Source of the DNA: a virus
Direction: 5' to 3' (one strand)
Virus record (IMG/VR): IMGVR_UViG_3300021957_000111
Span: 1-38,731 of that record
DNA length: 38,731 nucleotides
The position numbers and the translations under genes are program-made. The number at the start of each line of letters is the position of its first letter. Positions within the stretch are counted from its first letter, which is position 1. The notes below the pieces were generated by a model, which saw nothing but the letters and a program-made list of their open reading frames with translations, did no database searches and was not told the origin of the DNA. Shown piece after piece: positions 15,406 through 38,731 of the stretch.

Positions 15406-15446
15406 TAAAAATTAAAAATTAATAATAAAACTTAAATTAAAAAAAA

Positions 15447-17099: not shown

Positions 17100-17125
17100 T
17101 CAATAGATTATAATTAATAGTAATT

Positions 17126-17173: not shown

Positions 17174-17188
17174 ATAAATAGTTTTTAA

Positions 17189-20471: not shown

Positions 20472-21068
20472 ATGGCATTATTTGGAGGAGCAAGAGACAT
20501 AAGTCTATTTAGACATTTGAATAGGGAATTGATGGCTGACATCATTACCCAACAATGTTCTTTCTATAAATTTAAGTTAGAGGAAACTAAAGTAAACATA
20601 TATGGAGAAGCAGCTGAGGAAAAATTTTATATGGGTCCTGTTTTACTTAATTGTCTTATAGAAAGAGATAATGAGGACTTCCCAGAAACTGAATTAGGTA
20701 CAGATTTTAGTTGGGGTGCTACTTTTAAATTTCTCAGAGATGATTTATTAAATAAAAACCCTGATTTTAATGCAGAGTTTGCTCCTACAAACTATCAATA
20801 TGGAGCTGATTTAGTTCCTGAAGTTGGAGATATTATATTATATCAAGAAGGATACTATGAAGTAGATGTGGTTAATGCTAATCAGTATTTTATGGGTAAA
20901 AACCCAGATTATCCAAATTCACCTCAATTACAAAACCCAGGCTTAGAGGAATTTGGTTCATCTATTTCAATAATTTGTCAAACCCACTATGTACCAGCAG
21001 ATAAAGTCGGGATTACACAAGAAAGATTATATACTGGAAATAATTCAAACCCATCATTAAATGGCTAA
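20472..21068 (+). CDS. 14: Neck protein, gp14-like
   Basis: The product has 198 residues (T4 gp14 has 256). RHLNRELMADIITQQCSFYK, ETKVNIYGEAAEEKFYMGPV and especially VGDIILYQEGYYEVDVVNAN, followed by QYFMGKN, parallel T4 gp14 ([28 protein letters not shown]). It should form a head-closure ring with gp13. The C-terminus is shorter than in T4. The end overlaps the next gene by 8 bp. The order 13-14-15 is the T4 order. Confidence 0.9.
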   Translation: MALFGGARDISLFRHLNRELMADIITQQCSFYKFKLEETKVNIYGEAAEEKFYMGPVLLNCLIERDNEDFPETELGTDFSWGATFKFLRDDLLNKNPDFNAEFAPTNYQYGADLVPEVGDIILYQEGYYEVDVVNANQYFMGKNPDYPNSPQLQNPGLEEFGSSISIICQTHYVPADKVGITQERLYTGNNSNPSLNG

Positions 21069-22020
21069 TAGAGGAAAAATACCAATACCTAAAACACAAA
21101 GAGAAATATTAAATTCTCAAATTGAACCTTATAACCCGCCACCGGGTTCTCCTGGTTTCTCGGAAACAGGTAACCCTAATAATTCTAATGTTGTAAATAG
21201 AGGTAATCAAGTATCCTTTAGAGATGATAATACAAAACCCTTTTCATTAGGAATTAAAGATATTGATGAAGCTATAATGTATTATATGGAGGAGGTTATT
21301 AAACCTACAGTAATACAAAATGGAACAGTTCAACAAGTACCTTTTATTTATGGTGCTCCTGAAAGGTGGAAACAAATTCAAAAAGATGGATATTATAGGG
21401 ATAAGAATGGTAAAATAATGTTACCCTTAATTACATTTAAACGAAGTAATATTGAAAAAGTTAGAAATATAGCTAATAAATTAGATGCAAATAATCCCCA
21501 CAATGTAAGTATTTTTCAAAAACAATATAGTGTTAATAATGCTTATGATAATTTTAATACACTAAATAATAAAATACCCCAAAAAGTTAACTATGCTGTT
21601 GTAGTACCCGATTATGTTAATCTAACTTATGATTTTATTGTTGCTACTTATTATATAGAACAATTAAATAAAATAGTAGAAGCTATAAACTATGCATCTG
21701 ATTCGTATTGGGGTAATCCTGAAAGATACCAATTTAGAGCAAGAATAGACAACTTCGCAACCCCAGTACAAATAGAACAAAAAGGTGAACGATCTGTTAA
21801 AGCAACTTTTTCATTAAAACTTTATGGTTATTTAGTACCTGATACAATTAATAAAGAATTAAGTACAATTAGAAAAATGAATACCCCTACCCAAATCAAT
21901 TTTAATATGGAGACAGTACAAAATATAGAACAATTAAATAATCAATCTCAAAAAGACAATTCTCGTCTTAGCATTCAATCGAATAACAATTATACAAATT
22001 TTTCTTCAAAATCTAAGTAA
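21061..22020 (+). CDS. 15: Tail completion / sheath terminator protein, gp15-like
   Basis: The product has 319 residues (T4 gp15 has 272). After a Pro/Asn-rich leader come VPFIYGAPERWKQIQKDGYY, LPLITFKRSNIEKV, NYAVVVPDYVNLTYDFIVAT followed by YYIEQLNKIVEAINY, and SVKATFSLKLYGYLVPD. These match the order of T4 gp15 features: VPITYASKEHF; ILPRINL; PIKMIYELSIFTRYEDDMFQ; WSLTFEVNGWMYP. gp15 caps the sheath/tube end and connects the tail to the neck. The placement right after gp14 supports this. The C-terminal ~45 residues are Asn/Gln/Ser-rich and likely flexible. Confidence 0.85.
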   Translation: MANRGKIPIPKTQREILNSQIEPYNPPPGSPGFSETGNPNNSNVVNRGNQVSFRDDNTKPFSLGIKDIDEAIMYYMEEVIKPTVIQNGTVQQVPFIYGAPERWKQIQKDGYYRDKNGKIMLPLITFKRSNIEKVRNIANKLDANNPHNVSIFQKQYSVNNAYDNFNTLNNKIPQKVNYAVVVPDYVNLTYDFIVATYYIEQLNKIVEAINYASDSYWGNPERYQFRARIDNFATPVQIEQKGERSVKATFSLKLYGYLVPDTINKELSTIRKMNTPTQINFNMETVQNIEQLNNQSQKDNSRLSIQSNNNYTNFSSKSK

Positions 22021-22058: not shown

Positions 22059-23417
22059 ATGGGATTAATCTTAAGAAATATAAAAGGTTCTGAGTTAACT
22101 TGGACAGAAGTAGATGGGAATTTTTCCCAACTATTGTATGATGTCACAATTTCAGGTACCCAACTACAATTTTTTACCAATAATGGAGTAAATGATGTTT
22201 TAAAAAGATCATTTGATTTATCCCAAATCCCAGGATTTGCAGGGGTTACTATTTATGATGATGGCACTGAAATTGAAACTGGTGTTACAGAATTAAACTT
22301 CTTTGGAGCTGGTATTGCTGGTATAACTACTGACGGTAATAATAAAGTTAATATAGAAATAGAAGGTGGTGGTGGTGGTGATACTTACACATTAGAAGCA
22401 GGCCCTAAATCAGGAACAAGTGTTCCTTTAAATTTAGATGCTGCAGCGGGAGCAGATTCTACTGTTAATCTTACAGAAGGAGCAGGTATTACTATTACAC
22501 AAACATCTGCAGATGAAATAACCATTGAGGCAACTGCAACAGAGCCACTTTTTACAAATGCAACCCCAACACCTTTAAATTTCCCAGGTAATTCCCCATT
22601 TGATACTATACCATCTGGTACAACATTTAATGCAAAAACATTTGAACAAATGATGAATTTAATGTTGTATCCAACTTTATACCCTACTTTAACTGCCCCT
22701 TCAAATGGTTTTAATGTAACAACAACTCCAAATATAAGTGGTAATTTTAGAGAAATAGGAACTGTGTATGATATGGTATCCACATTAATTAATTTAAATT
22801 CATCATTTAATAGAGGATCCATCAACCCAGATTATGGTACAGATGGGTTTAGAAGTGGTTTACCTAATGGATATGTTTATACTGGACCCAATGCAAATTT
22901 TACTATAGTTAGTACATCTTTAACTAATAATATAAATCTCGCGGGTTCATACACAATATTACAAGGTAATAACACATGGACATCAGCAGTTTCTTATGAT
23001 GCAGGTCAACAACCTCTAGACAGTGTAGGAGATAATTTTGATTCTCCACTTCCAGCAGGTACAACAAGTCCTCCAAAATCAAGATCACTGGTAGGTGTTT
23101 ACCCAGTATTTGCTACTACTTCTAATATTACTACTTTAACACAACAAGGACTCCAATCTATGAGTCAGAGAATTCAAGTAGCCATGGTAGCAGAAACAGG
23201 AGGAAATAAACAAACAATAGATATACCAGTAGCATGGTCAACAATAACAGGATTACAACAATTTAATACTTTGAGTGGTCAATGGGATACCATTAGTTTA
23301 TCCTCATTTACAGTTACATCAGTAACTAATACAATTCAAGGCAATATAGTTAATTATAATAGATACACACATAACGGATCTACCATAGGTGGTAGATCGC
23401 TAAGATTTTTAGTATAA
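22059..23417 (+). CDS. Tail-fibre-like structural protein
   Basis: The product has 452 residues. The N-terminus MGLILRNIKGSELTWTEVDG, then NFSQL, follows the 'K-G-x-x-L-T-W-x-E-x-D-x-N-F' pattern common at the start of phage fibre proteins. VTELNFFGAGIAGITTDGNN and EGAGITITQTSADEITIEAT are repeated beta 'G-A-G-I-x-I-T' elements of the kind found in fibre shafts. A poly-Gly hinge (EGGGGGD) lies near residue 106. The C-terminal half is Ser/Thr/Asn-rich with aromatic residues and ends RSLRFLV, without a recognisable lectin motif. It is separated by one base from the giant collagen-like gene, so the two probably build one fibre system (for example a baseplate-proximal part plus a distal shaft), which is an inference. 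Confidence 0.8.
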   Translation: MGLILRNIKGSELTWTEVDGNFSQLLYDVTISGTQLQFFTNNGVNDVLKRSFDLSQIPGFAGVTIYDDGTEIETGVTELNFFGAGIAGITTDGNNKVNIEIEGGGGGDTYTLEAGPKSGTSVPLNLDAAAGADSTVNLTEGAGITITQTSADEITIEATATEPLFTNATPTPLNFPGNSPFDTIPSGTTFNAKTFEQMMNLMLYPTLYPTLTAPSNGFNVTTTPNISGNFREIGTVYDMVSTLINLNSSFNRGSINPDYGTDGFRSGLPNGYVYTGPNANFTIVSTSLTNNINLAGSYTILQGNNTWTSAVSYDAGQQPLDSVGDNFDSPLPAGTTSPPKSRSLVGVYPVFATTSNITTLTQQGLQSMSQRIQVAMVAETGGNKQTIDIPVAWSTITGLQQFNTLSGQWDTISLSSFTVTSVTNTIQGNIVNYNRYTHNGSTIGGRSLRFLV

Positions 23418-23418: not shown

Positions 23419-26400
23419 ATGGGAAGAGATAAAGGATTATTACCATTTGCAGGAAATTTCGAACCTGAAAAAGCGGGAGCATTTGATGCACGTGCAAACA
23501 TACCTACAAAGGCCGATTTAATTGTAGCTTCCAATTGGACTGCTAATGATGGAAATTCTTATGTTTATGAGGGTATGACTGTTACAGTTGCTCAAGATAC
23601 AACAACCGAAAATAATGGTATTTATGTTTTAGTAGACCCAAGTAATATTACAGCAGTTGATTACTCAGGTTGGATATTTATAGGAGCTGGTGGTGCATCC
23701 GGAGGATCAGGTACATCTGGTTCTTCAGGTTCTTCAGGTTCATCAGGTGCTTCAGGCGAATCAGGTGCTTCAGGTACAACAGGTACATCAGGAACCTCAG
23801 GTGAATCAGGTTCAAATGGTTCATCAGGTACAAGTGGAGAATCTAATACTTCAGGTTCAGCAGGTACTTCAGGAGAATCAGGAACTTCAGGCCTCGCAGG
23901 TACATCAGGCGAATCAGGTTCAAATGGTTCAATAGGTACATCAGGCGAATCAGGTACTTCAGGCGAATCAGGTACATCAGGTATATCAGGTACATCAGGT
24001 GAATCAGGAACTTCTGGTTCCGCAGGAACTTCAGGAGAATCAGGTACTTCAGGCGAATCAGGTACATCAGGCGAATCAGGTTCAAACGGTTCAAGTGGTA
24101 CATCAGGAGAATCAGGTACATCAGGTACATCAGGTATATCAGGTACATCAGGTACATCAGGTGAATCAGGAACTTCTGGTTCAGCAGGTACTTCAGGTGA
24201 AAGTGGAACAACAGGTTCAGCAGGAACTTCAGGAGAATCAGGAACATCAGGCTCAGCAGGAACTTCAGGCGAATCCGGTTCAAATGGTTCAAGTGGTACA
24301 TCAGGCGAATCAGGCACAAATGGCTCAAGTGGTACATCAGGAGAAGCAGGTTCAAATGGTTCAAGCGGTACTTCAGGAGAAAGTGGAACAACTGGTTCAA
24401 GTGGTACATCTGGAGAATCAGGTACAACTGGTTCAAGTGGTACATCTGGAGAATCAGGTTCAGCAGGTTCAGCAGGTACATCTGGTACTTCAGGCTCAAC
24501 AGGTACATCAGGTACTTCAGGAGAATCAAATACAAGCGGTTCAGCAGGGACATCTGGAACATCAGGTTCAAGTGGTACTGCAGGAACTTCAGGAGAATCT
24601 AACACATCTGGTAGTTCAGGTACTGCAGGTACTTCAGGTTCAAGTGGTACTGCAGGTACAAGTGGTGAATCAAATACAAGTGGTTCAGCAGGAACTTCAG
24701 GAACATCTGGTTCAAGTGGTACTGCAGGTACTTCGGGTGAATCAAATACAAGTGGTTCAGCAGGAACTTCAGGAACATCAGGTTCGACAGGTTCAGCTGG
24801 TACATCCGGAGAATCTAACACTTCAGGTTCAGCAGGTACATCAGGAACATCTGGTTCAAGCGGTTCAGCAGGTACTTCAGGTGAATCTAACACAAGTGGT
24901 TCAGCAGGAACCTCAGGAACATCAGGTTCAACAGGTACAGCAGGTACAAGTGGAGAATCAAATACAAGCGGTTCAGCAGGTACATCAGGTACTTCAGGTT
25001 CAAGTGGTACTGTAGGTACAAGTGGAGAATCTAATACATCAGGTTCAGCAGGTACTTCAGGAACATCGGGAACATCAGGTACAGTAGGTACAAGTGGAGA
25101 ATCAAATACAAGTGGTTCAGCAGGAACATCTGGAACTTCAGGTTCAAGTGGTACTGCAGGAACATCAGGTGAATCAAACACATCAGGCTCAGCAGGAACT
25201 TCAGGTACTTCAGGTTCGACAGGTTCAGCTGGTACATCAGGAGAATCAAACACATCAGGCTCAGCAGGAACTTCAGGTACTTCAGGTTCAACTGGAACCT
25301 CAGGTACAAGTGGAGAATCAAACACATCAGGTTCAGCAGGAACTTCAGGAACTTCAGGCACATCAGGTTCATCAGGAACTGCTGGTACAAGTGGTGAATC
25401 AAATACATCAGGTTCAGCAGGTACATCTGGAACTTCGGGTTCAACTGGAACTGCAGGAACATCAGGTGAATCAAATACAAGTGGTTCAGCGGGTACATCA
25501 GGTACTTCAGGATCAACAGGTACTGCAGGTACCTCAGGTGAATCAAATACTAGTGGTTCAGCAGGTACTTCAGGTACATCAGGCTCAACTGGAACTGCAG
25601 GTACTTCAGGAGAATCTAACACAAGTGGTTCAGCAGGTACATCAGGTACTTCGGGTTCAAGTGGCTCAGCAGGAACTTCAGGTGAATCAAATACTTCAGG
25701 TTCAGCGGGTACTTCAGGAACATCAGGTTCATCAGGTTCATCAGGAACAGCAGGAACTTCAGGAGAATCTAACACAAGTGGTTCAGCAGGAACATCAGGC
25801 ACATCAGGCTCAACTGGAACTGCAGGTACTTCAGGTGAATCTAATACTTCAGGTTCAGCAGGAACATCAGGCACATCAGGTTCATCAGGTTCAGCAGGAA
25901 CTTCGGGAGAATCAAATACAAGTGGTTCAGCAGGTACTTCAGGTACATCAGGTTCAACTGGAACTGCAGGTACAAGTGGTGAATCAGGAACATCAGGTTC
26001 AGCAGGAACTTCAGGTGAATCAGGTTCAAATGGCTCTTCAGGAACTTCAGGAGAATCAGGATCAACAGGCTCAAGTGGTACATCTGGAGAATCAGGTTCA
26101 AATGGTTCAGCAGGTACATCAGGTGAATCAGGAACTTCAGGCTCAGCAGGAACTTCAGGTGAATCAGGATCAAATGGTTCAAATGGTACTTCAGGAGAAA
26201 GTGGAACAACTGGTTCAGCAGGTACATCAGGCGAATCAGGTTCAAATGGTTCAAGCGGTACATCAGGCGAATCAGGTACAAACGGTTCAAGTGGTACTTC
26301 AGGTGAGTCAGGTTCAAATGGCTCAAGTGGTACATCTGGAGAAAGTGGAACAAATGGTTCAAGTGGTACTTCAGGCGAATCAGGTACAAACGGTTCAAGT

Positions 26401-29400
26401 GGCACTTCAGGTGAATCAGGATCAAATGGTTCAAATGGTACTTCAGGCGAGTCAGGAACATCAGGTTCAGCAGGAACTTCAGGTGAATCAGGTTCAAATG
26501 GTTCTTCAGGAACATCAGGTGAATCTAATACATCAGGTTCATCGGGTACTTCAGGTACATCAGGAGAAAATGGCTCAAGTGGTACATCTGGTGAATCAGG
26601 AACTTCAGGTTCAACTGGTACTTCAGGTACATCAGGTGAATCAGGTTCAAATGGTTCTGCAGGTACAAGTGGAGAATCAGGAACATCAGGCTCAGCAGGA
26701 ACTTCAGGTGAATCTGGATCAAATGGTTCAAATGGTACTTCAGGTGAATCAGGCACAAATGGCTCAAGCGGTACTTCAGGCGAATCAGGTTCAAATGGCT
26801 CAAGTGGCACTTCAGGAGAATCAGGTTCAGCAGGTACTTCAGGTGAATCTAATACTTCAGGTTCAACAGGAACTTCAGGTACATCAGGAGAAAATGGTTC
26901 AAGTGGTACTTCAGGCGAATCAGGAACCTCAGGTTCAACTGGTACTTCAGGTGAATCAGGTTCAAATGGTTCTGCAGGTACATCAGGCGAATCTGGTACA
27001 AGTGGTTCTGCAGGAACTTCAGGAGAATCAGGTACAAATGGCTCAAGTGGTACTTCAGGTGAATCAGGAACAAATGGCTCAAGTGGTACATCAGGTGAAT
27101 CAGGAACAAATGGCTCAAGTGGTACTTCAGGTACTTCAGGAGAATCAGGATCAGCAGGTACTTCAGGTGAATCTAATACTTCAGGTTCAGCAGGAACTTC
27201 AGGTACATCAGGTGAATCAGGATCAGCAGGTACATCAGGTGAATCTAATACATCAGGTTCAACTGGTACTTCAGGCACATCAGGAGAAAATGGTTCAAGC
27301 GGTACTTCAGGCGAATCAGGAACTTCAGGCTCAGCAGGAACTTCAGGCGAATCAGGTTCAAATGGTTCAAGCGGTACTTCAGGCGAATCAGGAACAAATG
27401 GTTCAAGTGGTTCTGCAGGAACATCAGGTGAAAATGGTTCAAGTGGTACTTCAGGCGAATCAGGAGAATCTGGTACAAGTGGTTCAGCGGGTACTTCAGG
27501 AGAAGCAGGATCATCAGGTGATAGTAAAGAATCAGGAACAAGCGGTTCAAGTGGATCTGCAGGTACAACTGGAGAAGCAGGATCATCAGGTGATAGTAAA
27601 GAATCAGGAACAAGTGGTTCAAGTGGTTCTGCAGGAACATCAGGTGAAAATGGTTCAACAGGTACAAGCGGTATAGCAGGAGAAAGTGGAACTTCAGGTT
27701 CATCCGGAACATCAGGTGAAAATGGTTCAACTGGTACAAGTGGTATAGCAGGAGAAAGTGGAACAAACGGTTCAAGCGGTACTTCAGGAGAAAATGGTTC
27801 TACAGGTACAAATGGTGAAGCAGGCGAGTCAGGTTCAGATGGAACAAACGGAACATCAGGAGAAGATGGTTCAACTGGATCAAATGGTGATGCAGGTGAG
27901 TCAGGTTCAGATGGTACTAATGGTACTTCAGGAGAAGATGGTTCAACAGGTTCAAATGGAGAAGCTGGAGAAAGTGGTTCAGACGGAACAAATGGAACAT
28001 CTGGAGAAAATGGTTCAACAGGATCTAACGGAGCCGATGGTGAATCAGGTTCAGATGGTACAAGTGGTACTTCAGGAGAAAATGGTTCAACAGGTACTAA
28101 TGGAGCAGCAGGTGAGTCAGGCTCGGATGGTACAAATGGAACTTCAGGTGAAAACGGTTCAACAGGTACAAGTGGTGAAGCAGGCGAATCAGGTTCAAAT
28201 GGTTCATCAGGTACATCAGGTGAAAATGGTTCAACTGGTACAAGTGGTATAGCAGGGGAAAGTGGAACAAGCGGTTCATCAGGTACATCAGGTGAAAACG
28301 GCTCAACAGGTACAAACGGTGAAGCTGGAGAAAGTGGTTCAGATGGTACTAATGGTACTTCAGGTGAGAATGGCTCAACAGGGTCTAATGGAGCAGCAGG
28401 TGAGTCAGGTTCAGATGGTACTAATGGAACATCAGGTATAAACGGTTCAACAGGTTCTAATGGAGCAGCAGGAGAAAGTGGTGCAGATGGAACAAATGGT
28501 ACATCAGGAGAAGATGGTTCAACAGGTACAACAGGTGAAGCAGGTGAGTCAGGAGCTGATGGAACATCAGGAACTTCAGGTGTAAATGGTTCTACTGGTT
28601 CAAACGGAGCAGATGGCGAATCAGGTGCTAATGGTTCATCAGGTACATCAGGTGAAAATGGTTCAACAGGATCTAATGGAGTAGCAGGCGAATCAGGTTC
28701 AGATGGTACAAGTGGTACTTCAGGAGAAAATGGTTCAACTGGTACTAATGGTGAAGCTGGAGAAAGCGGTGCAGATGGTACAAATGGAACAAGTGGAGAA
28801 GACGGCTCAACAGGTACAAATGGTGAAGCAGGTGAGTCAGGTGCTAATGGTACAAGCGGTACTTCAGGAGTTAATGGTTCAACAGGATCAAATGGTGCTG
28901 ATGGCGAATCAGGTGCTAATGGAACATCAGGTACATCAGGTGAAAACGGTTCAACAGGGTCTAATGGAGCAGCAGGTGAATCAGGTTCAGATGGTACTAA
29001 CGGTACTTCAGGAGAAAATGGTTCAACAGGTACAAATGGTGAAGCAGGTGAGTCAGGTGCTAATGGTTCATCAGGTACATCAGGTGAAAATGGTTCAACA
29101 GGTACAACAGGTGATGCAGGTGAGTCAGGAGCTGATGGAACATCAGGAACCTCAGGTGAAAACGGATCAACAGGTACAAACGGAGAAGCAGGTGAATCAG
29201 GTGCTAATGGTTCATCAGGTACATCAGGTGAAAATGGTTCAACAGGATCTAACGGAGCCGATGGTGAATCAGGTGCTAATGGTACTAGCGGAACATCAGG
29301 TGAAAATGGTTCAACTGGTACAACAGGTGATGCAGGTGAAAGCGGAGCAGATGGTACTAACGGTACTTCAGGAGAAAATGGTTCAGTAGGTTCTAGTGGT

Positions 29401-32400
29401 GAAGCAGGCGAATCAGGTTCAAATGGTTCTGCAGGAACATCAGGTGAAAATGGTTCAACAGGTACAAGCGGTATAGCAGGGGAAAGTGGAATAAATGGTT
29501 CATCAGGTACTTCAGGTGAAAATGGTTCAACAGGTTCAAACGGAGCAGCAGGTGAAAGCGGAGCTGATGGTACTAGCGGAACATCAGGAGTTAATGGTTC
29601 AACAGGATCAAATGGTGCAGACGGAGAATCAGGAGCAGACGGAACAAATGGAACATCAGGTGAAAATGGTTCAACTGGATCAAATGGTGATGCAGGCGAA
29701 TCAGGTTCAGACGGAACAAACGGAACAAGTGGTGAGAATGGTTCAACAGGTACAAATGGTGAAGCAGGTGAGTCAGGTGCTAATGGTTCATCAGGTACAT
29801 CAGGTGAAAATGGTTCAACAGGATCTAACGGAGCCGATGGTGAATCAGGTTCAGATGGTACAAGTGGTACTTCAGGTGAAAATGGTTCAACAGGTTCTAA
29901 TGGAGCCGATGGTGAATCAGGTTCAGATGGAACAAACGGAACAAGCGGTGAAGATGGCTCAACAGGTACAAATGGAGACGCAGGCGAATCAGGTTCAGAT
30001 GGTACAAACGGAACAAGTGGAGAAGACGGCTCAACAGGTACAAATGGTGAAGCAGGAGAAAGTGGCTCAGATGGAACAAATGGAACATCTGGAGAAAATG
30101 GTTCTACAGGATCAAATGGTGCTGATGGTGAATCAGGTGCTAATGGTACTAGCGGAACATCAGGAGAAAATGGTTCAATAGGATCAAATGGTGCTGATGG
30201 CGAATCAGGTGCTAATGGTACTAGCGGAACATCAGGTGAAAATGGTTCAACAGGTTCTAATGGAGCCGATGGTGAGTCAGGTTCAGATGGTACCAACGGA
30301 ACATCAGGAGAAGATGGTTCAACAGGTACAACTGGGGATGCTGGAGAAAGCGGAGCTGATGGAACAAGTGGTACTTCAGGTGAAAATGGTTCAACAGGTT
30401 CAAATGGAGCAAATGGCGAATCAGGTGCTAATGGAACAAGCGGTACTTCAGGAGTTAATGGTTCAACAGGATCAAATGGTGCAAACGGAGAATCAGGAGC
30501 AGATGGTACTAATGGTACTTCAGGTGAAAATGGTTCTCAAGGATCTAATGGAGCAGGTGGTGAGTCAGGTGCTAATGGAACAAATGGTACTTCAGGAGAA
30601 GATGGTTCAACAGGTACTAATGGTGAGGCAGGCGAATCAGGTTCAGATGGAACAAACGGAACAAGTGGTGAGAATGGTTCAACTGGTACTAATGGTGAAG
30701 CAGGTGAGTCAGGTGCTAATGGAACATCAGGTACATCAGGTGAAGATGGTTCTACAGGATCAAATGGTGCTGATGGCGAATCAGGTGCTAATGGAACATC
30801 AGGTACATCAGGTGAAAATGGTTCTACAGGATCAAATGGTGCTGATGGCGAATCAGGTGCTAATGGTACTAGCGGAACATCAGGTGAAAACGGCTCAACA
30901 GGTACAAACGGAGAAGCAGGTGAATCAGGTTCAGATGGAACAAACGGAACATCAGGAGAAGATGGTTCAACAGGTTCAAGTGGAGATGATGGTGAAAGTG
31001 GAGCGGATGGAACAAGTGGTACTTCAGGTATAAACGGTTCAATAGGTTCAAACGGAGCAAATGGCGAATCAGGTGCTAATGGAACAAGCGGTACTTCAGG
31101 AGAAAATGGTTCAATAGGATCAAATGGTGCAAACGGAGAATCAGGTGCAGATGGAACAAATGGAACATCAGGAGAAGATGGTTCTCAAGGTTCAAACGGA
31201 GCAGGTGGAGAAAGTGGTGCAGATGGTACTAACGGTACTTCAGGAGAAAATGGTTCAACTGGTACAACTGGGGATGCTGGAGAAAGCGGAGCTGATGGTA
31301 CTAGCGGAACATCAGGTGTAAACGGCTCAACAGGTTCAAACGGAGCAGCAGGACAATCAGGTGCTAATGGTACAAGCGGTACTTCAGGAGAAAATGGTTC
31401 TACAGGATCTAACGGAGCAAATGGAGAATCAGGAGCAGATGGTACATCAGGAACATCAGGTGAAAATGGTTCTACTGGTACAAACGGAGCAGCAGGAGAA
31501 AGTGGTGCTAATGGAACAAATGGAACAAGTGGAGAAGATGGCTCAACAGGTACAAATGGAGACGCAGGCGAATCAGGTTCAGATGGTACAAACGGAACTT
31601 CAGGTGAAAATGGTTCAACAGGTTCAAGTGGAGATGATGGTGAAAGTGGAGCTGATGGAACAAGCGGTACTTCAGGTGAAAATGGTTCAACAGGTTCAAA
31701 CGGAGCAGCAGGTGAAAGCGGAGCAGATGGTACATCAGGAACATCAGGTGTAAACGGCTCAACAGGTTCAAACGGAGCAAACGGAGAATCAGGAGCAGAC
31801 GGAACAAATGGAACATCAGGTGAAAACGGTTCAACAGGTACAAATGGAGATGCAGGAGAAAGCGGTGCAGATGGAACAAATGGAACATCTGGAGAAAATG
31901 GTTCAACAGGTACAACTGGGGATGCTGGAGAAAGCGGAGCTGATGGTACTAGCGGAACATCAGGTGTAAATGGTTCTATAGGGTCAAATGGCGCAGCAGG
32001 TCAATCAGGTGCAGATGGTACTAACGGAACATCAGGTATAAATGGTTCTACAGGATCTAACGGAGCAAATGGAGAATCAGGAGCAGATGGTACATCAGGA
32101 ACATCAGGAGAAGATGGTTCTCAAGGTTCAAACGGAGCAGGTGGAGAAAGTGGTGCAGATGGTACTAACGGTACTTCAGGAGAAAATGGTTCAACAGGTA
32201 CAACTGGAGATGCAGGCGAATCAGGTGCTGATGGTACAAGCGGTACTTCAGGAGAAGATGGCTCAACAGGTACAAACGGTGAAGCAGGAGAAAGTGGAGC
32301 GGATGGAACAAGTGGTACTTCAGGTGAAAATGGTTCTACTGGTTCTAACGGAGCAAATGGAGAATCAGGAGCAGATGGTACATCAGGAACATCAGGTGTA

Positions 32401-35400
32401 AACGGCTCAACAGGTTCAAACGGAGCAAACGGAGAATCAGGTGCAGATGGAACAAACGGAACAAGTGGAGAAGATGGTTCAACAGGTACAAATGGAGATG
32501 CAGGAGAAAGCGGTGCAGATGGAACAAATGGAACATCTGGAGAAAATGGTTCAACAGGTACAAATGGTGAAGCAGGTGAGTCAGGTGCTAATGGTACAAG
32601 CGGTACTTCAGGAGTTAATGGTTCAACAGGATCAAATGGTGCAAACGGAGAATCAGGAGCAGACGGAACAAATGGAACAAGTGGTGAAGATGGTTCTCAA
32701 GGTTCAAACGGAGCAGCAGGTGAAAGCGGAGCTGACGGAACAAATGGAACAAGCGGTGAAGATGGTTCAACTGGTACCAATGGTGAAGCAGGTGAATCAG
32801 GCTCAGATGGAACAAACGGAACATCTGGAGAAGATGGCTCAACAGGTACAAACGGTGAAGCAGGAGAAAGTGGATCAGACGGAACAAACGGAACAAGTGG
32901 TGTAAACGGCTCAACAGGTTCAAACGGAGCAGCAGGACAATCAGGTGCTAATGGTACAAGCGGTACTTCAGGAGAAAATGGTTCAACAGGATCTAATGGT
33001 GCAGGTGGTGAATCAGGTGCAGACGGAACAAATGGAACATCAGGAGAAGATGGTTCTCAAGGTTCAAACGGAGCAGGTGGAGAAAGTGGTGCAGACGGAA
33101 CGAATGGTACTTCAGGTGAAGATGGTTCAACTGGTACAACTGGAGATGCAGGTCAATCAGGTGCGGACGGAACAAACGGTACTTCAGGAGAAGATGGCTC
33201 AACTGGTACTAATGGTGAGGCAGGCGAATCAGGTTCAGATGGAACAAACGGAACAAGTGGTGAAAACGGCTCAACAGGTTCAAACGGAGCAGCAGGTGAA
33301 TCAGGTGCTGATGGAACATCAGGAACATCAGGTGAAAACGGTTCAACAGGTACAAACGGAGAAGCTGGAGAAAGCGGTGCAGACGGAACAAACGGAACTT
33401 CAGGTGAAAACGGATCAACAGGTACAAACGGAGACGCAGGCGAATCAGGTTCAGATGGTACAAATGGTACAAGCGGTGAAAACGGATCAACAGGTACAAA
33501 CGGAGAAGCAGGTGAATCAGGTTCAGATGGTACAAATGGTACTTCTGGAGAAGATGGTTCTCAAGGTTCTAACGGAGCAGGTGGAGAAAGTGGTGCAGAC
33601 GGAACGAATGGTACTTCAGGTGAAGATGGTTCTCAAGGTTCAAATGGAGCAGGTGGACAATCTGGAGCAGATGGTACTAACGGAACAAGTGGAGAAGATG
33701 GTTCAACAGGTACAAATGGAGATGCAGGAGAAAGCGGAGCTGATGGTACTAGCGGAACATCAGGTATAAACGGCTCAACAGGTTCAAACGGAGCAGCAGG
33801 CGAATCAGGTGCAGATGGTACAAACGGAACTTCAGGTGAAAATGGTTCAACAGGATCTAATGGAGTAGCAGGTCAATCAGGTTCAGATGGTACTAACGGT
33901 ACATCAGGTGAAAACGGATCAACAGGTACAAACGGAGAAGCAGGTGAATCAGGTGCAGATGGTACAAATGGTACTTCTGGAGAAGATGGTTCTCAAGGTT
34001 CAAACGGAGCAGGTGGTGAATCAGGAGCTGATGGTACTAATGGTACAAGCGGTGAAAATGGTTCAACTGGTACTAATGGTGATGCAGGTCAATCAGGTGC
34101 GGACGGAACAAACGGTACTTCAGGAGAAGATGGTTCAACTGGTACAAACGGAGAAGCAGGCGAATCAGGCTCAGATGGAACGAATGGTACTTCAGGTAAA
34201 AATGGTTCTACTGGTTCAAACGGAGCAGCAGGACAATCAGGTTCAGATGGTACTAATGGTACAAGCGGTGAAAACGGCTCAACAGGTACAAATGGTGAAG
34301 CAGGACAAAGTGGTGCTGATGGTACTAACGGAACATCAGGAGAAGATGGTTCTCAAGGATCTAATGGTGCAGGTGGACAATCAGGTGCTGATGGTACAAA
34401 TGGTACTTCAGGAGAAGATGGTTCTCAAGGTACCAATGGTGATGGGGGGCAAAGTGGTGCTGATGGAACAAATGGAACATCAGGAGAAGATGGTTCAACA
34501 GGTACAAACGGAGAAGCAGGCGAATCAGGTGCTGATGGTACAAATGGTACTTCAGGTGAAAACGGCTCAACAGGTTCAAATGGAGCAGCGGGACAATCAG
34601 GTTCAGATGGTACTAATGGAACGAGTGGAGAAAATGGTTCAACAGGTACAAATGGTGAAGCAGGAGAAAGCGGTGCAGACGGAACAAACGGAACAAGCGG
34701 TGAAAACGGCTCAACAGGATCTAATGGTGCAGCAGGACAATCAGGTTCAGATGGTACTAATGGAACGAGTGGAGAAGATGGTTCTCAAGGTACAAATGGA
34801 GATGCAGGCGAATCAGGCTCAGATGGTACTAACGGAACTTCTGGAGAAGATGGTTCAACAGGTACAAATGGAGATGCAGGTCAATCAGGTGCAGACGGAA
34901 CAAACGGAACAAGTGGTGAAGATGGTTCAGTAGGATCAAATGGTGATGGAGGTGCATCAGGAGCTGATGGTACAAATGGAACATCAGGTGAAGATGGTTC
35001 TCAAGGATCTAATGGAGCAGGCGGACAATCAGGTGCTGATGGTACTAATGGTACATCAGGTGAAGATGGTTCTCAAGGTTCTAACGGAGCAGGTGGACAA
35101 TCAGGTGCTGATGGTACTAATGGTACATCAGGTGAAGATGGTTCAACTGGTACTAATGGTGAAGCAGGTGAGTCAGGTGCTGATGGTACAAATGGTACTT
35201 CAGGTGAAAATGGTTCAACAGGATCTAATGGAGCAGCAGGACAAAGTGGTGCTGATGGTACTAACGGAACATCAGGAGAAGATGGTTCTAATGGAACATC
35301 AGGAGATGCAGGTCAATCAGGTGCTGATGGTACTAATGGTACATCAGGAGAAGATGGTTCAACAGGTACAAACGGAGAAGCAGGTCAATCAGGTTCAGAT

Positions 35401-38352
35401 GGTACAAACGGAACAAGTGGTGAAAACGGCTCAACAGGATCTAATGGAGCAGCAGGTGCATCAGGTTCAGATGGTACTAACGGAACTTCAGGAGAAGATG
35501 GTTCTCAAGGTACAAATGGAGACGCAGGTCAATCAGGTTCAGATGGTACAAATGGTACTTCTGGAGAAGATGGTTCAGTAGGATCAAACGGTGATGCAGG
35601 TGCATCAGGTTCAGATGGTACAAATGGAACATCAGGAGAAGATGGCTCAGTAGGATCAAATGGTGATGGAGGTGCATCAGGAGCTGATGGTACAAATGGA
35701 ACATCAGGTGAAGATGGTTCTCAAGGTACAAATGGTGATGGAGGTCAAAGTGGTGCTGATGGTACAAATGGTACTTCAGGAGAAGATGGTTCTCAAGGTT
35801 CTAACGGAGCAGGTGGACAATCAGGTGCAGACGGAACAAATGGAACTTCTGGAGAAGATGGTTCAATAGGTACAAACGGAGAAGCAGGTGAATCAGGTGC
35901 AGATGGTACTAATGGAACAAGTGGAGAAGATGGTTCTCAAGGTTCTAACGGAGCAGGTGGACAATCAGGTGCAGACGGAACAAATGGAACTTCAGGTGAA
36001 AACGGCTCAACAGGTACAAATGGTAACGCAGGTCAATCAGGTGCAGACGGAACGAATGGTACTTCAGGAGAAAATGGTTCAACAGGATCTAATGGAGTAG
36101 CAGGTCAATCAGGTTCAGATGGTACAAACGGAACATCAGGTGAAAATGGTTCAACAGGTACAAATGGAGCAGCAGGTCAATCAGGTGCAGATGGTACTAA
36201 CGGAACATCAGGAGAAGATGGTTCTCAAGGTACAACTGGAGATGCGGGTCAAAGTGGTGCTGATGGTACAAACGGAACAAGTGGAGAAAATGGTTCAACA
36301 GGATCTAATGGAGCAGCAGGACAATCAGGTGCAGACGGAACAAATGGAACAAGTGGAGAAGATGGCTCTACAGGTACAAATGGTGATGGAGGTCAAAGTG
36401 GTGCTGATGGTACAAACGGAACAAGTGGAGAAGATGGTTCTCAAGGTACAAATGGTGATGGTGGACAATCAGGAGCAGATGGTACTAATGGAACATCAGG
36501 AGAAAATGGTTCAACAGGATCTAATGGAGTAGCAGGTCAATCAGGAGCTGATGGTACAAACGGAACATCTGGAGAAGATGGTTCAACAGGTACAACTGGA
36601 GATGCAGGTCAATCAGGTGCAGATGGTACTAACGGAACAAGTGGAGAAGATGGTTCAACAGGTTCTAATGGAGCAGCAGGACAATCAGGTTCAGATGGTA
36701 CAAATGGTACAAGCGGTGAAAACGGATCAACAGGTACAAATGGTAATGCAGGTCAATCAGGTGCAGATGGTACTAACGGAACATCAGGTGAAAATGGTTC
36801 AACAGGATCTAACGGAGCAGCAGGAGCCTCAGGTGTAGATGGTGCAGGTGGAACATCAGGTGAAAATGGTTCAAATGGTTCAAATGGAGCAGCAGGACAA
36901 TCAGGTGCAGACGGAACTAATGGTACTTCAGGTGAAAACGGTTCAACAGGATCTAATGGAGCAGCAGGAGCAAGTGGTTCAGATGGTACAAATGGCACAT
37001 CAGGTGAAGATGGTTCTCAAGGTACAAATGGTGATGGAGGTCAAAGTGGTGCTGATGGTACAAACGGAACAAGCGGTGAAGATGGTTCAACAGGATCTAA
37101 TGGAGTAGCAGGTCAATCAGGAGCTGATGGTACAAACGGAACATCTGGAGAAGATGGTTCAACAGGTACAACTGGAGATGCAGGTCAATCAGGTGCTGAT
37201 GGAACAAATGGTACAAGTGGTGAAGATGGTTCTCAAGGCTCAAACGGAGCAGGTGGACAATCCGGAGCAGATGGTACTAACGGAACAAGCGGTGAAGATG
37301 GCTCAACAGGTACAAATGGTGATGGTGGACAATCAGGAGCAGATGGTACTAATGGAACATCAGGAGAAGATGGTACAACAGGATCAAATGGTGGTGCAGG
37401 TCAATCAGGAGCAGATGGTGCAAATGGAACATCTGGAGAAGATGGTTCAAATGGTTCAAATGGAGCAGCAGGAGCATCAGGAGTAGATGGTGCCAATGGA
37501 ACAAGTGGAGAAGATGGTTCAACAGGATCAAATGGTGATGCAGGTCAATCAGGTGCTGATGGTACTAGTGGAACATCAGGAGAAGATGGTTCAACAGGAT
37601 CAAATGGAGCAAACGGAGGATCAGGTTTAAATGGTATAAGTAATACTTCAGGTACTTCAGGTTCATCAGGTTCAAGTGGTGTAGGTGGTGCTGGAGGTGT
37701 TTCTGGAGGTACAGGTTCATCAGGTACTTCAGGAGTTGATGGAACATCTGGTAAAGATGGTTCAAATGGTACTTCAGGTGTAATTGGAGGATCAGGTTCT
37801 TCAATTACCATTACAACTAACCGTAATGTGGTAATTGCTGGTGGTACTTCAGCTACTTTAGATCAAGATAGAAGTCTTTCAATTTTAAATCCAATTGATT
37901 TAGGTGCAGATGTATTCGGTCAAGCAGGTAAAATAAAATATCCTCATGTTACATCACTTAACCTTGCTTCAGGTGATGTAGTTTATTTTGGAGGTCAATC
38001 AACAGGTACTTTAGCCCCACAGCTTGGTAGTGTAGTGTTTTTATCTTCTCAAGGACTTTGGGGTAGAACAATTAGTAGTAGTAGTAATGTCGGTAGAATG
38101 GTAGGTTTAGCTTTAGGAGGCACAATTTCTACTAGTGGGGTATTACTAAGAGGAGTTTTTAGGACAGGTTCTAGTACCTTATATCCAGCAGGAGCTCCAC
38201 TATATATTACAAACTCATATGGTGCGTTTTCTGGTACAAAACCATCTAGTGGATATGTAAAAATAATAGGATTTGGTATGAATGGAAGTAGTTCATCTAC
38301 AGTGACACAATCTATATGGTTCGATCCTGATAAAACATGGGTGACATTATAA
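23419..38352 (+). CDS. Giant collagen-like fibre protein (4977 residues)
   Basis: This is a single uninterrupted reading frame. Residues 1-88 form an N-terminal domain (LLPFAGNFEPEKAGAFDARA; NSYVYEGMTVTVAQDTT; YSGWIFIG) like anchoring domains of phage fibres. Residues 89-4795 are 1569 consecutive three-residue units with Gly first, apart from rare Asn or Lys replacements. I saw no proline, cysteine or aromatic residue in them and only a few Lys, but abundant Ser, Thr, Asn, Asp and Glu. Residues 4796-4977 form a globular knob (DVVYFGGQSTGTLAPQLGSV; GLALGGTISTSGVLLRGVFR; QSIWFDPDKTWVTL) resembling fibre-tip domains in which 'F-(N/D)-P-D-x-T-W' ends the chain. It likely forms a very long trimeric fibre or a polyglycine-II-like bundle for reaching host surface polymers. 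It starts 1 bp after the previous stop. The next gene, another adhesin-like protein, may be its partner. The fold is not proven by sequence. Confidence 0.92.
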   Translation: MGRDKGLLPFAGNFEPEKAGAFDARANIPTKADLIVASNWTANDGNSYVYEGMTVTVAQDTTTENNGIYVLVDPSNITAVDYSGWIFIGAGGASGGSGTSGSSGSSGSSGASGESGASGTTGTSGTSGESGSNGSSGTSGESNTSGSAGTSGESGTSGLAGTSGESGSNGSIGTSGESGTSGESGTSGISGTSGESGTSGSAGTSGESGTSGESGTSGESGSNGSSGTSGESGTSGTSGISGTSGTSGESGTSGSAGTSGESGTTGSAGTSGESGTSGSAGTSGESGSNGSSGTSGESGTNGSSGTSGEAGSNGSSGTSGESGTTGSSGTSGESGTTGSSGTSGESGSAGSAGTSGTSGSTGTSGTSGESNTSGSAGTSGTSGSSGTAGTSGESNTSGSSGTAGTSGSSGTAGTSGESNTSGSAGTSGTSGSSGTAGTSGESNTSGSAGTSGTSGSTGSAGTSGESNTSGSAGTSGTSGSSGSAGTSGESNTSGSAGTSGTSGSTGTAGTSGESNTSGSAGTSGTSGSSGTVGTSGESNTSGSAGTSGTSGTSGTVGTSGESNTSGSAGTSGTSGSSGTAGTSGESNTSGSAGTSGTSGSTGSAGTSGESNTSGSAGTSGTSGSTGTSGTSGESNTSGSAGTSGTSGTSGSSGTAGTSGESNTSGSAGTSGTSGSTGTAGTSGESNTSGSAGTSGTSGSTGTAGTSGESNTSGSAGTSGTSGSTGTAGTSGESNTSGSAGTSGTSGSSGSAGTSGESNTSGSAGTSGTSGSSGSSGTAGTSGESNTSGSAGTSGTSGSTGTAGTSGESNTSGSAGTSGTSGSSGSAGTSGESNTSGSAGTSGTSGSTGTAGTSGESGTSGSAGTSGESGSNGSSGTSGESGSTGSSGTSGESGSNGSAGTSGESGTSGSAGTSGESGSNGSNGTSGESGTTGSAGTSGESGSNGSSGTSGESGTNGSSGTSGESGSNGSSGTSGESGTNGSSGTSGESGTNGSSGTSGESGSNGSNGTSGESGTSGSAGTSGESGSNGSSGTSGESNTSGSSGTSGTSGENGSSGTSGESGTSGSTGTSGTSGESGSNGSAGTSGESGTSGSAGTSGESGSNGSNGTSGESGTNGSSGTSGESGSNGSSGTSGESGSAGTSGESNTSGSTGTSGTSGENGSSGTSGESGTSGSTGTSGESGSNGSAGTSGESGTSGSAGTSGESGTNGSSGTSGESGTNGSSGTSGESGTNGSSGTSGTSGESGSAGTSGESNTSGSAGTSGTSGESGSAGTSGESNTSGSTGTSGTSGENGSSGTSGESGTSGSAGTSGESGSNGSSGTSGESGTNGSSGSAGTSGENGSSGTSGESGESGTSGSAGTSGEAGSSGDSKESGTSGSSGSAGTTGEAGSSGDSKESGTSGSSGSAGTSGENGSTGTSGIAGESGTSGSSGTSGENGSTGTSGIAGESGTNGSSGTSGENGSTGTNGEAGESGSDGTNGTSGEDGSTGSNGDAGESGSDGTNGTSGEDGSTGSNGEAGESGSDGTNGTSGENGSTGSNGADGESGSDGTSGTSGENGSTGTNGAAGESGSDGTNGTSGENGSTGTSGEAGESGSNGSSGTSGENGSTGTSGIAGESGTSGSSGTSGENGSTGTNGEAGESGSDGTNGTSGENGSTGSNGAAGESGSDGTNGTSGINGSTGSNGAAGESGADGTNGTSGEDGSTGTTGEAGESGADGTSGTSGVNGSTGSNGADGESGANGSSGTSGENGSTGSNGVAGESGSDGTSGTSGENGSTGTNGEAGESGADGTNGTSGEDGSTGTNGEAGESGANGTSGTSGVNGSTGSNGADGESGANGTSGTSGENGSTGSNGAAGESGSDGTNGTSGENGSTGTNGEAGESGANGSSGTSGENGSTGTTGDAGESGADGTSGTSGENGSTGTNGEAGESGANGSSGTSGENGSTGSNGADGESGANGTSGTSGENGSTGTTGDAGESGADGTNGTSGENGSVGSSGEAGESGSNGSAGTSGENGSTGTSGIAGESGINGSSGTSGENGSTGSNGAAGESGADGTSGTSGVNGSTGSNGADGESGADGTNGTSGENGSTGSNGDAGESGSDGTNGTSGENGSTGTNGEAGESGANGSSGTSGENGSTGSNGADGESGSDGTSGTSGENGSTGSNGADGESGSDGTNGTSGEDGSTGTNGDAGESGSDGTNGTSGEDGSTGTNGEAGESGSDGTNGTSGENGSTGSNGADGESGANGTSGTSGENGSIGSNGADGESGANGTSGTSGENGSTGSNGADGESGSDGTNGTSGEDGSTGTTGDAGESGADGTSGTSGENGSTGSNGANGESGANGTSGTSGVNGSTGSNGANGESGADGTNGTSGENGSQGSNGAGGESGANGTNGTSGEDGSTGTNGEAGESGSDGTNGTSGENGSTGTNGEAGESGANGTSGTSGEDGSTGSNGADGESGANGTSGTSGENGSTGSNGADGESGANGTSGTSGENGSTGTNGEAGESGSDGTNGTSGEDGSTGSSGDDGESGADGTSGTSGINGSIGSNGANGESGANGTSGTSGENGSIGSNGANGESGADGTNGTSGEDGSQGSNGAGGESGADGTNGTSGENGSTGTTGDAGESGADGTSGTSGVNGSTGSNGAAGQSGANGTSGTSGENGSTGSNGANGESGADGTSGTSGENGSTGTNGAAGESGANGTNGTSGEDGSTGTNGDAGESGSDGTNGTSGENGSTGSSGDDGESGADGTSGTSGENGSTGSNGAAGESGADGTSGTSGVNGSTGSNGANGESGADGTNGTSGENGSTGTNGDAGESGADGTNGTSGENGSTGTTGDAGESGADGTSGTSGVNGSIGSNGAAGQSGADGTNGTSGINGSTGSNGANGESGADGTSGTSGEDGSQGSNGAGGESGADGTNGTSGENGSTGTTGDAGESGADGTSGTSGEDGSTGTNGEAGESGADGTSGTSGENGSTGSNGANGESGADGTSGTSGVNGSTGSNGANGESGADGTNGTSGEDGSTGTNGDAGESGADGTNGTSGENGSTGTNGEAGESGANGTSGTSGVNGSTGSNGANGESGADGTNGTSGEDGSQGSNGAAGESGADGTNGTSGEDGSTGTNGEAGESGSDGTNGTSGEDGSTGTNGEAGESGSDGTNGTSGVNGSTGSNGAAGQSGANGTSGTSGENGSTGSNGAGGESGADGTNGTSGEDGSQGSNGAGGESGADGTNGTSGEDGSTGTTGDAGQSGADGTNGTSGEDGSTGTNGEAGESGSDGTNGTSGENGSTGSNGAAGESGADGTSGTSGENGSTGTNGEAGESGADGTNGTSGENGSTGTNGDAGESGSDGTNGTSGENGSTGTNGEAGESGSDGTNGTSGEDGSQGSNGAGGESGADGTNGTSGEDGSQGSNGAGGQSGADGTNGTSGEDGSTGTNGDAGESGADGTSGTSGINGSTGSNGAAGESGADGTNGTSGENGSTGSNGVAGQSGSDGTNGTSGENGSTGTNGEAGESGADGTNGTSGEDGSQGSNGAGGESGADGTNGTSGENGSTGTNGDAGQSGADGTNGTSGEDGSTGTNGEAGESGSDGTNGTSGKNGSTGSNGAAGQSGSDGTNGTSGENGSTGTNGEAGQSGADGTNGTSGEDGSQGSNGAGGQSGADGTNGTSGEDGSQGTNGDGGQSGADGTNGTSGEDGSTGTNGEAGESGADGTNGTSGENGSTGSNGAAGQSGSDGTNGTSGENGSTGTNGEAGESGADGTNGTSGENGSTGSNGAAGQSGSDGTNGTSGEDGSQGTNGDAGESGSDGTNGTSGEDGSTGTNGDAGQSGADGTNGTSGEDGSVGSNGDGGASGADGTNGTSGEDGSQGSNGAGGQSGADGTNGTSGEDGSQGSNGAGGQSGADGTNGTSGEDGSTGTNGEAGESGADGTNGTSGENGSTGSNGAAGQSGADGTNGTSGEDGSNGTSGDAGQSGADGTNGTSGEDGSTGTNGEAGQSGSDGTNGTSGENGSTGSNGAAGASGSDGTNGTSGEDGSQGTNGDAGQSGSDGTNGTSGEDGSVGSNGDAGASGSDGTNGTSGEDGSVGSNGDGGASGADGTNGTSGEDGSQGTNGDGGQSGADGTNGTSGEDGSQGSNGAGGQSGADGTNGTSGEDGSIGTNGEAGESGADGTNGTSGEDGSQGSNGAGGQSGADGTNGTSGENGSTGTNGNAGQSGADGTNGTSGENGSTGSNGVAGQSGSDGTNGTSGENGSTGTNGAAGQSGADGTNGTSGEDGSQGTTGDAGQSGADGTNGTSGENGSTGSNGAAGQSGADGTNGTSGEDGSTGTNGDGGQSGADGTNGTSGEDGSQGTNGDGGQSGADGTNGTSGENGSTGSNGVAGQSGADGTNGTSGEDGSTGTTGDAGQSGADGTNGTSGEDGSTGSNGAAGQSGSDGTNGTSGENGSTGTNGNAGQSGADGTNGTSGENGSTGSNGAAGASGVDGAGGTSGENGSNGSNGAAGQSGADGTNGTSGENGSTGSNGAAGASGSDGTNGTSGEDGSQGTNGDGGQSGADGTNGTSGEDGSTGSNGVAGQSGADGTNGTSGEDGSTGTTGDAGQSGADGTNGTSGEDGSQGSNGAGGQSGADGTNGTSGEDGSTGTNGDGGQSGADGTNGTSGEDGTTGSNGGAGQSGADGANGTSGEDGSNGSNGAAGASGVDGANGTSGEDGSTGSNGDAGQSGADGTSGTSGEDGSTGSNGANGGSGLNGISNTSGTSGSSGSSGVGGAGGVSGGTGSSGTSGVDGTSGKDGSNGTSGVIGGSGSSITITTNRNVVIAGGTSATLDQDRSLSILNPIDLGADVFGQAGKIKYPHVTSLNLASGDVVYFGGQSTGTLAPQLGSVVFLSSQGLWGRTISSSSNVGRMVGLALGGTISTSGVLLRGVFRTGSSTLYPAGAPLYITNSYGAFSGTKPSSGYVKIIGFGMNGSSSSTVTQSIWFDPDKTWVTL
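23683..24519 (+). repeat. Collagen-like triplets, zone 1 (93 triplets)
   Basis: This is an irregular mixture of GTS, GES, GSS, GSN, GSA and GAS triplets directly after the N-terminal domain. GTS GES alternation is frequent. One NTS triplet (Asn in the Gly place) occurs near 23850. No longer unit length is kept. Confidence 0.9.
24520..25977 (+). repeat. Collagen-like triplets, zone 2: 20 units with an Asn-for-Gly break in each
   Basis: Twenty units each begin GES NTS (usually followed by GSA) and end GTS. Eighteen units have 8 triplets (72 bp) and two have 9, which accounts exactly for the 1458 bp. The second triplet NTS puts Asn (AAT or AAC) where Gly is expected, making a regularly spaced break in the Gly register. 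Confidence 0.92.
25978..27642 (+). repeat. Collagen-like triplets, zone 3 (185 triplets)
   Basis: Mostly alternating GES, GTS, GSN/GTN, GSS/GSA triplets without a fixed long unit. It has scattered NTS breaks and, at its end, two KES triplets at 27526 and 27598 (72 bp apart) where Lys replaces Gly. It is transitional between zones 2 and 4. Confidence 0.88.
36506..36620 (+). repeat. 115-bp perfect direct repeat, copy 1 (copy 2 at 37082-37196)
   Basis: This stretch is identical base for base to 37082-37196, a displacement of 576 bp or exactly eight units. Most neighbouring units differ at many synonymous sites, so such long identity points to recent copying or conversion inside the array. Confidence 0.85.
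37082..37196 (+). repeat. 115-bp perfect direct repeat, copy 2
   Basis: Second copy of 36506-36620; both flanks differ (preceding base G versus A, following base T versus A). Confidence 0.85.
37651..37803 (+). repeat. Collagen-like triplets, terminal zone (17 triplets)
   Basis: After the last 24-residue unit, which ends in a single NTS break, the array returns to irregular GTS, GSS, GVG, GAG and GVS triplets. It stops at GSS immediately before the C-terminal knob (ITITTNRNVVIAGG). Confidence 0.88.
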
Positions 38353-38361: not shown

Positions 38362-38731
38362 ATGGCAGCAACAATAGTATATATACAAGAAACTAAAAAT
38401 GCAGTTGCTTATGCTGTAGGTTCCAGTTCATCAAGTACTACATCTTGGTTATTAGCTAGAAATTCAACAACTGCAGCTTCATTTAATTCATATACCTCAT
38501 TAACTAATGTATCTAATGCTATATTTGCTCAACAAACATTTAGTAAAGGTAATTATAATTCAATAATTTATCGAACATTTTTTTATTTCGATTTAAGCAG
38601 TATTCCAGGCACTATAACATCTCTACAATTAAGAATTTATACAATTGATAATAATACAGGGGGTGAGGGTAGGACAATTATAATGAAAACAAATGCATTT
38701 GGGAATAATGGGTCAAACTTTGTTAGTGGTG
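38362..38731 (+). CDS. DNRLRE-like adhesin/fibre protein, 3' truncated
   Basis: The ATG at 38362 lies 9 bp after the giant fibre gene, and the frame stays open to the window end (123 codons). It reads MAATIVYIQETKNAVAYAVG, then a Ser/Thr run, then IIYRTFFYFDLSSIPGTITS followed by LQLRIYTIDNN. The 'R-x-x-x-x-F-D-L-S-S-I-P-x-x-x-T-x-x-x-L-x-(I/L)-Y' pattern matches the DNRLRE beta-sandwich found in secreted and surface proteins, often next to carbohydrate-active or adhesive domains. There is no signal peptide, as expected for a virion protein. Likely a fibre or receptor-contact protein that works with the preceding gene product. The remainder lies outside the window. Confidence 0.8.
   Translation, partial: MAATIVYIQETKNAVAYAVGSSSSSTTSWLLARNSTTAASFNSYTSLTNVSNAIFAQQTFSKGNYNSIIYRTFFYFDLSSIPGTITSLQLRIYTIDNNTGGEGRTIIMKTNAFGNNGSNFVSG

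Follow-up and report, generated by a model that had tools for sequence, protein, structure and literature searches.

A giant proline-free collagen-like fibre gene in a T4-superfamily phage fragment and putative TibC-type glycosylation cassettes beside the fibre genes of its relatives

EPclA, a prophage side-tail protein of Escherichia coli O157:H7, is a trimer with a collagen triple helix that melts at 42 °C, and rEPclA was found not to be glycosylated (PMC3368898). Bacterial collagens contain about 19% Pro in the X position (PMC8968730). Among the TibC/AAH autotransporter O-heptosyltransferase systems, the catalytic residues Asp110 and Lys230 and the four iron-finger Cys of TibC have been described (PMC4358343). 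In marine T4-like pelagimyophages, glycosyltransferases, rfaE and collagen-repeat proteins occur in or near the host-recognition cluster; the authors read the cluster enzymes as LPS modifiers, and in the accessible portion of that study no link between these enzymes and the collagen repeats is drawn (PMC7029224). Gene 224 of Flavobacterium phage immuto (vB_FspM_immuto, MW353175) encodes a 578-aa "tail fiber protein". The window analysed here, which is the whole stretch of 38,731 nucleotides from an IMG/VR virus record, contains a gene (23419-38352, + strand) for a 4977-aa collagen-like fibre (430 kDa, calculated pI 4.05). As in EPclA and its relatives, a Gly-X-Y stalk connects globular domains at the N- and C-terminus. 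The window fibre departs from EPclA in having 1569 triplets in one chain, in the absence of Pro and of any recognisable coiled coil or Pfam fibre domain, and in the kind of C-terminal domain; moreover, its relatives possess a TibC cassette.

Gene content and order identify the window as part of the genome of an immuto-related phage of the T4 superfamily. The head and packaging genes (7027-17935, +) include the large terminase, gp20 portal, prohead protease and gp23 in syntenic order, and the sequence of terminase, gp20, prohead protease, gp23, PhoH and a neck-type protein is immuto-like, with the major capsid protein gp23 at 58.5% to its immuto counterpart. The order from terminase to tail sheath is similar in both phages, the sheath-like gene being located downstream in the relatives, in a region beyond the window's end. 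A conserved homologue of immuto gp214 (21061-22020, +; 49%) is followed by a gene for a 452-aa protein (22059-23417, +), whose first ~107 residues are of the GSELT..EVD.NF type and correspond to the giant-fibre N-terminus in four relatives (L011, L012, L015 and L082). No match was obtained in Pfam or PHROGs for the N-terminal domain of the fibre, its C-terminal domain alone or the 452-aa neighbour, and profile searches against PDB sequences returned nothing useful for the two terminal domains or the 319-aa neighbour. The window contains no tRNA genes. Since a related fibre with its cassette occurs on a contig that was binned into a Flavobacteriales MAG, the host of the window phage is likely among the Flavobacteriales. 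Elsewhere in the window, a 431-aa FAD/NAD oxidoreductase-like protein and a cupin (WbuC / D-lyxose isomerase-like) are encoded at 3488-5530 (+) beside a nucleotide-kinase-like gene, perhaps for sugar metabolism. The first ~20 residues of three adjacent small genes (2237-3360, +) resemble those of immuto gene 195, possibly representing a common leader or processing signal.

The fibre gene is a single open frame of 4977 codons with an ATG start and one stop, as the sequence-only reading had proposed. Its triplet array (23683-37803, +; residues 89-4795) covers 14,121 bp and 4707 residues in one register, confirming that reading's statement that the register never slips. Its description of 1569 consecutive triplets was correct in number and too strict in placing Gly first throughout: 28 of the 1569 triplets carry another residue at the Gly place, namely Asn in 26 cases (NTS) and Lys in two (KES). 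Residues 371-835 (24529-25923, +) hold 20 of these 28 substitutions, with Asn taking the place of Gly at intervals of 24 or 27 residues. The longest perfect Gly run (27607-37641, +; residues 1397-4741) extends over 1115 triplets, comprising 139 unbroken 24-residue (72-bp) units, with a log10 P of about -531 at the array's own Gly frequency. A 2211-aa antisense open frame overlaps the array (23661-30296, - strand); as a gene it was dropped, being a by-product of the repeat codon pattern.

The composition of the array is far from that of a classical Pro-stabilised collagen with Pro in X and/or (hydroxy)Pro in Y, as Pro, Cys and aromatic residues are all absent among the 4707 residues. The stalk is rich in Ser, Thr and Asn (1055 Ser in the array), and 555 Asp and Glu stand against four Lys/Arg, all of them Lys, giving a net charge of -551. 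Because there is no Pro, almost no Lys or Arg and 28 Gly substitutions, an unmodified classical triple helix over the whole array length is not assured. The 1.3 micrometres of the sequence-only reading presuppose that the whole array forms one straight triple helix; the stalk would then measure 4707 x 0.286 nm = 1346 nm, and ~1.35 micrometres could be reached as an upper figure.

Comparison of neighbouring 72-bp units, which are related by duplication and hence partly dependent, revealed 0 changes in 2208 at Gly codon positions 1-2 (1104 Gly codons compared), with position 3 differing in 46% of adjacent pairs. With the same dependence between units, all 139 units retain Ser as their third and twelfth residue although both TCN and AGY codons are in use, and in the Asn codon of NTS the first and second positions each showed 0/17 changes versus 8/17 at position 3, demonstrating that the Gly-to-Asn substitution itself is conserved. 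From these codon-position contrasts it follows that Gly, certain Ser/Thr and the Gly substitutions are maintained at the protein level. A flexible, disordered Gly/Ser-rich tether with no fixed fold would agree with the GTSGTSG-like composition, which resembles engineered linkers, and with the strong negative charge of the array. However, a linker needs no Gly at every third place, and the invariance of all compared Gly codons at positions 1-2 renders such a tether quite improbable.

The integrity of so long a repetitive gene was assessed from the repeats themselves and from other assemblies. The longest exact repeat within the fibre gene is 115 bp, and the 139 units of the perfect run are all distinct. 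A contig from another metagenome (G025), 99.4% identical to the window, aligns collinearly and free of indels with the initial 950 bp of the gene and breaks off within the array; therefore, the full length of the window's fibre gene rests on one assembly. Among the relatives, the gene for a 3010-aa fibre differs between two separate assemblies (G002 and G003) by three mismatches and no indel over 30 kb, a third contig (G007) agrees with it in two pieces, and the gene for a 2543-aa fibre is identical in two contigs. With two relative genes reproduced in separate assemblies, the family and the size class of these long Gly-X-X genes are real and no artefact. That assembly has inflated the window's gene and the true one is shorter would fit the break of the 99.4% identical contig within the array and the presence of repeats up to 115 bp, yet it is highly improbable given that no longer repeat exists, that the units are distinct, and that relatives carry genes of 2291-3250 aa, two of them reproduced in separate assemblies.

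Relatives were retrieved by synteny with the neighbour at 21061-22020, resulting in at least 80 syntenic loci, of which about 40 have Gly-X-X frames at the same place. The complete relative proteins comprise 2291, 2468, 2543, 3010 and 3250 aa, and the complete long fibres of the clade contain 1569 (the window), 843, 701, 665 and 650 triplets with the register unbroken. In the main clade, 72-85 Gly are replaced per protein, mostly at 21- or 24-residue spacing without a slip of register, and the window fibre stands apart by its very long unsubstituted distal run. The collagen model PF01391 scored above its cut-off in the 99.4% identical contig and in 15 relatives. Three N-terminal types were distinguished, i.e., A (the window's), B (GSELT/EVD, also present on the 452-aa neighbour) and C (MALDK). 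When used as tblastn queries, neither a piece of the array nor the fibre N-termini of the relatives retrieved any cultured phage. Two members are unusual in architecture. In one array (L098, G008:C1:36000-47438), Gly is substituted in 209 of 1015 triplets, for the most part at 12-residue intervals and without register slip; such an array is hard to reconcile with a normal triple helix. In the 3250-aa fibre (L082:7382-17132), Gly-X-X blocks alternate with inserted domains of ~110 aa, and a Peptidase_S74 domain is located at the end.

Bundles of short polyglycine-II helices are known from snow flea antifreeze protein and S16 gp38, and the array might analogously fold back about every 24 residues. 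The absence of Pro accords with such a bundle, as does the conservation across the family of Gly substitutions every 24 residues (12 in L098). Against it, the substitutions leave the register unbroken, and a run of 1115 triplets in the window contains none, leaving this fold improbable.

The N-terminal domain (residues 1-88; 23419-23682, +) shares 48-70% identity with the fibre genes of four relatives (L042, L070, L076 and L077) and about 42% with tail proteins of crAss-like phages; its AlphaFold2 model was poor, with a pLDDT of 47. The C-terminal domain, a putative tip of 182 aa (37804-38349, +), is homologous to the end of immuto gene 224 (31%), although the immuto protein has no Gly-X-X stalk. 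Its predicted structure has an overall pLDDT of 82, with the last ~135 residues confident and beta-rich. This domain is homologous across fibres of N-terminal types A, B and C, and its position is always the extreme C-terminus in a range of fibre-like proteins, some of them without collagen. A search of its model against BFVD revealed resemblance to viral fibre C-termini and fibre-like proteins; the PDB matches were weak, with 8hdt_G at prob 0.99, E 0.02 and a TM-score of about 0.5, and 8saj at prob 0.96, both being phage capsid decoration proteins. The distal part of the fibre has weak PHROG tail-fibre matches, and one Gly-X-X relative ends in a Peptidase_S74 fibre chaperone (E 1.1e-18). Together, the recurrence of the C-terminal domain, its likeness to BFVD entries and the Peptidase_S74 relative point to a fibre with a terminal knob.

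The earlier proposal of a collagen-like phage fibre is supported by the selection on Gly in an in-register repeat, the non-collagen domains on both sides of the stalk, the T4-type structural gene neighbourhood, the C-terminal domain shared with the immuto tail fibre protein and many fibre-like proteins, and the Peptidase_S74 end of a relative. SPP1 gp12 is a capsid-bound collagen-like protein. With this precedent, the weak resemblance of the C-terminal model to capsid decoration proteins and the adjacency of the fibre gene to neck-type genes, the C-terminal domain might sit on the capsid or neck of a head or neck fibre with the N-terminus directed outward. This arrangement has a low probability, considering that the C-terminal domain is the variable end of many fibre-like proteins, that the structure search in BFVD returns fibre-like proteins, and that the window's N-terminal domain matches tail proteins of crAss-like phages. 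Where the tip domain is a separate gene, it moreover follows a tail-fibre gene, directly 3' of it in one locus (L165). The idea that separate 153-aa tip-domain genes beside a capsid gene encode capsid decoration proteins was dropped because of this L165 gene.

A putative TibC-type glycosylation cassette beside long Gly-X-X fibre genes is, on the evidence of gene order and profile matches, a new observation. In the relatives, the fibre gene is followed at its 3' side by a methyltransferase-like gene (in several), a ~235-aa gene, a two-domain ~900-aa GT4 protein with a weak GT25 match, a ~318-aa GT4 and a TibC-like gene, after which one more gene precedes the tail sheath. The TibC-like protein scored 313-336 bits with TIGR04414, above the equivalog cut-off of 200, and the proteins of Microcystis phage Mel-JY01 and of G026 also exceeded that cut-off. 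It matched the solved TibC (4rap/4rb4) at E 1e-71, and the TibC Asp110, Lys230 and four iron-finger Cys align to invariant D116, K238, C350, C353, C367 and C379. The relatives thereby share TIGR04414 membership, catalytic and iron-finger residues, and a long, repetitive, Ser-rich adjacent gene for the presumed substrate with the TibC/AAH systems. Unlike in those systems, the presumed acceptor would be a collagen-like phage fibre instead of a beta-helical autotransporter, and the transfer of heptose is presumed.

In the window, a truncated homologue of the ~235-aa cassette gene, which lies between fibre and glycosyltransferases in the relatives, occupies 38362-38730 (+; 51.8 bits) and is cut off by the end of the contig, which comes 379 bp after the fibre and before any glycosyltransferase. 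For that reason the window's own TibC-type enzyme is not seen, and as this last gene belongs to the cassette, the remainder is predicted just beyond the window's end. No contig was found that continues the window beyond its 3' end. The small SAM-methyltransferase-like gene (L111:10502-11062 and homologues), often placed directly after the fibre, could act on the fibre or on a fibre glycan. Glycosyltransferases, NAD-dependent sugar epimerases and a nucleotide-sugar dehydrogenase are clustered in one relative (L274:72-9498; G002:C1:38071-47497).

A same-strand Gly-X-X gene was present upstream in 42/43 TibC loci with at least 5.3 kb of upstream sequence, and in 23/24 TibC clusters at 90% identity, figures that come partly from one clade and ignore kinship. 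Much of the association lies within one related clade, and shared descent accordingly explains part of it. When loci were anchored on the tip domain, TibC was located downstream in 7/12 with Gly-X-X (two of the seven being identical) versus 1/51 without (Fisher p 1e-5). TibC-linked stalks contain at most 2.1% Pro, with Ser making up 28-64% of X+Y, and of the five Gly-X-X genes found without TibC, Pro is present in four and Ser is scarce in four; L180 is not counted among these five, since its TibC lies on the opposite strand. The exceptions on the TibC side are L260, with Gly-X-X on the other strand, and LR756504, with no Gly-X-X within 15 kb. The link recurs in other arrangements in the cultured Mel-JY01, a 735-kb phage and G026. 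At the start of the Mel-JY01 record (L267:2-3049), a long Gly-X-X frame, as a whole unannotated, adjoins an ORF that bears the annotation "methyltransferase FkbM" and includes a TibC domain.

HldE kinase-like and adenylyltransferase-like genes occur in G002 and G006, and the best NCBIfam models for those of G002 are ADP-heptose ones, below their equivalog cut-offs; gmhA was not found. In Mel-JY01, TibC is present and the two HldE domains are missing, HldE-like genes occur in one genome that lacks Gly-X-X, and immuto contains neither the kinase-like nor the adenylyltransferase-like gene.

The enzymes might instead alter the host LPS or O-antigen in superinfection exclusion, lying by chance in a host-recognition island next to an unglycosylated collagen-like fibre, much as the pelagimyophage cluster has been interpreted (PMC7029224). 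Both settings are marine and T4-like, with glycosyltransferases in the fibre island and collagen repeats. This account is unlikely, though it deserves to be weighed: the enzyme scores above the cut-off of TIGR04414, a protein-specific model, and retains both the catalytic and the iron-finger residues of TibC, TibC tracks Ser-rich, Pro-free Gly-X-X genes and not fibres in general, and immuto, with the same C-terminal domain but without Gly-X-X, has no TibC.

Glycosylation of the virion's own fibre is proposed in its place, because the stalk has no Pro and is Ser/Thr/Asn-rich. The product is, with somewhat better than even confidence, a trimeric collagen-like virion adhesion fibre whose Pro-free stalk is stabilised by serine O-glycosylation through a TibC-type enzyme. 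In the proposed pathway, residues 1-88 would form the docking end on the virion, and residues 89-4795 the stalk; the latter is most likely a homotrimeric Gly-X-X helix whose proximal part bears Gly substitutions at regular intervals. The C-terminal domain, likely a distal trimeric knob for receptor binding or registration, would nucleate the stalk trimer, and the TibC-type heptosyltransferase from the downstream cassette would O-glycosylate stalk serines. This modification may replace (hydroxy)proline in folding, stabilising or protecting the stalk, supplying the stability given in other bacterial collagens by Pro and Lys-Glu pairs. Counting against it, TibC is known for beta-helical autotransporters and not for Gly-X-X proteins. 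The Bacteroidota O-glycosylation motif D(S/T)(A/I/L/M/V/T) occurs 0 times in the array, so that O-glycosylation by a Bacteroidota host is not indicated. In purified TibA, glycosylation left the final fold unchanged by proteolysis and CD, and in TibC's own substrate it affects folding dynamics and conformational change (PMC3835316). Considering the unaffected final fold of TibA, the benefit for the stalk could be in folding, solubility or protection and not in thermal stability.

The window array would be among the longest single-chain collagen-like domains known, here in a phage. Human type VII collagen comprises about 1530 residues, and, as far as is known, only the annelid cuticle collagens are longer. 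That a class of marine phages builds micrometre-scale, Pro-free collagen-like fibres whose conserved stalk serines receive heptose or heptose-based glycans from phage TibC-type enzymes, replacing hydroxyproline, is a tentative generalisation that falls slightly short of an even chance. Use of the fibre as a fisher of hosts, an anchor to particles or a linker of virions is speculation. The adjoining serine-glycosylating enzyme type in the relatives may explain how a Pro-free collagen holds together. Two questions become testable, namely the stability of Pro-free collagen and the true targets of the "LPS-modifying" glycosyltransferases of marine T4-like phages, and the cultured Mel-JY01, with its Gly-X-X gene beside a TibC domain, offers a system for trying the glycosylation idea. 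Should these enzymes prove to glycosylate the fibre of their own virion, the annotation of many phage sugar genes would have to be revised.
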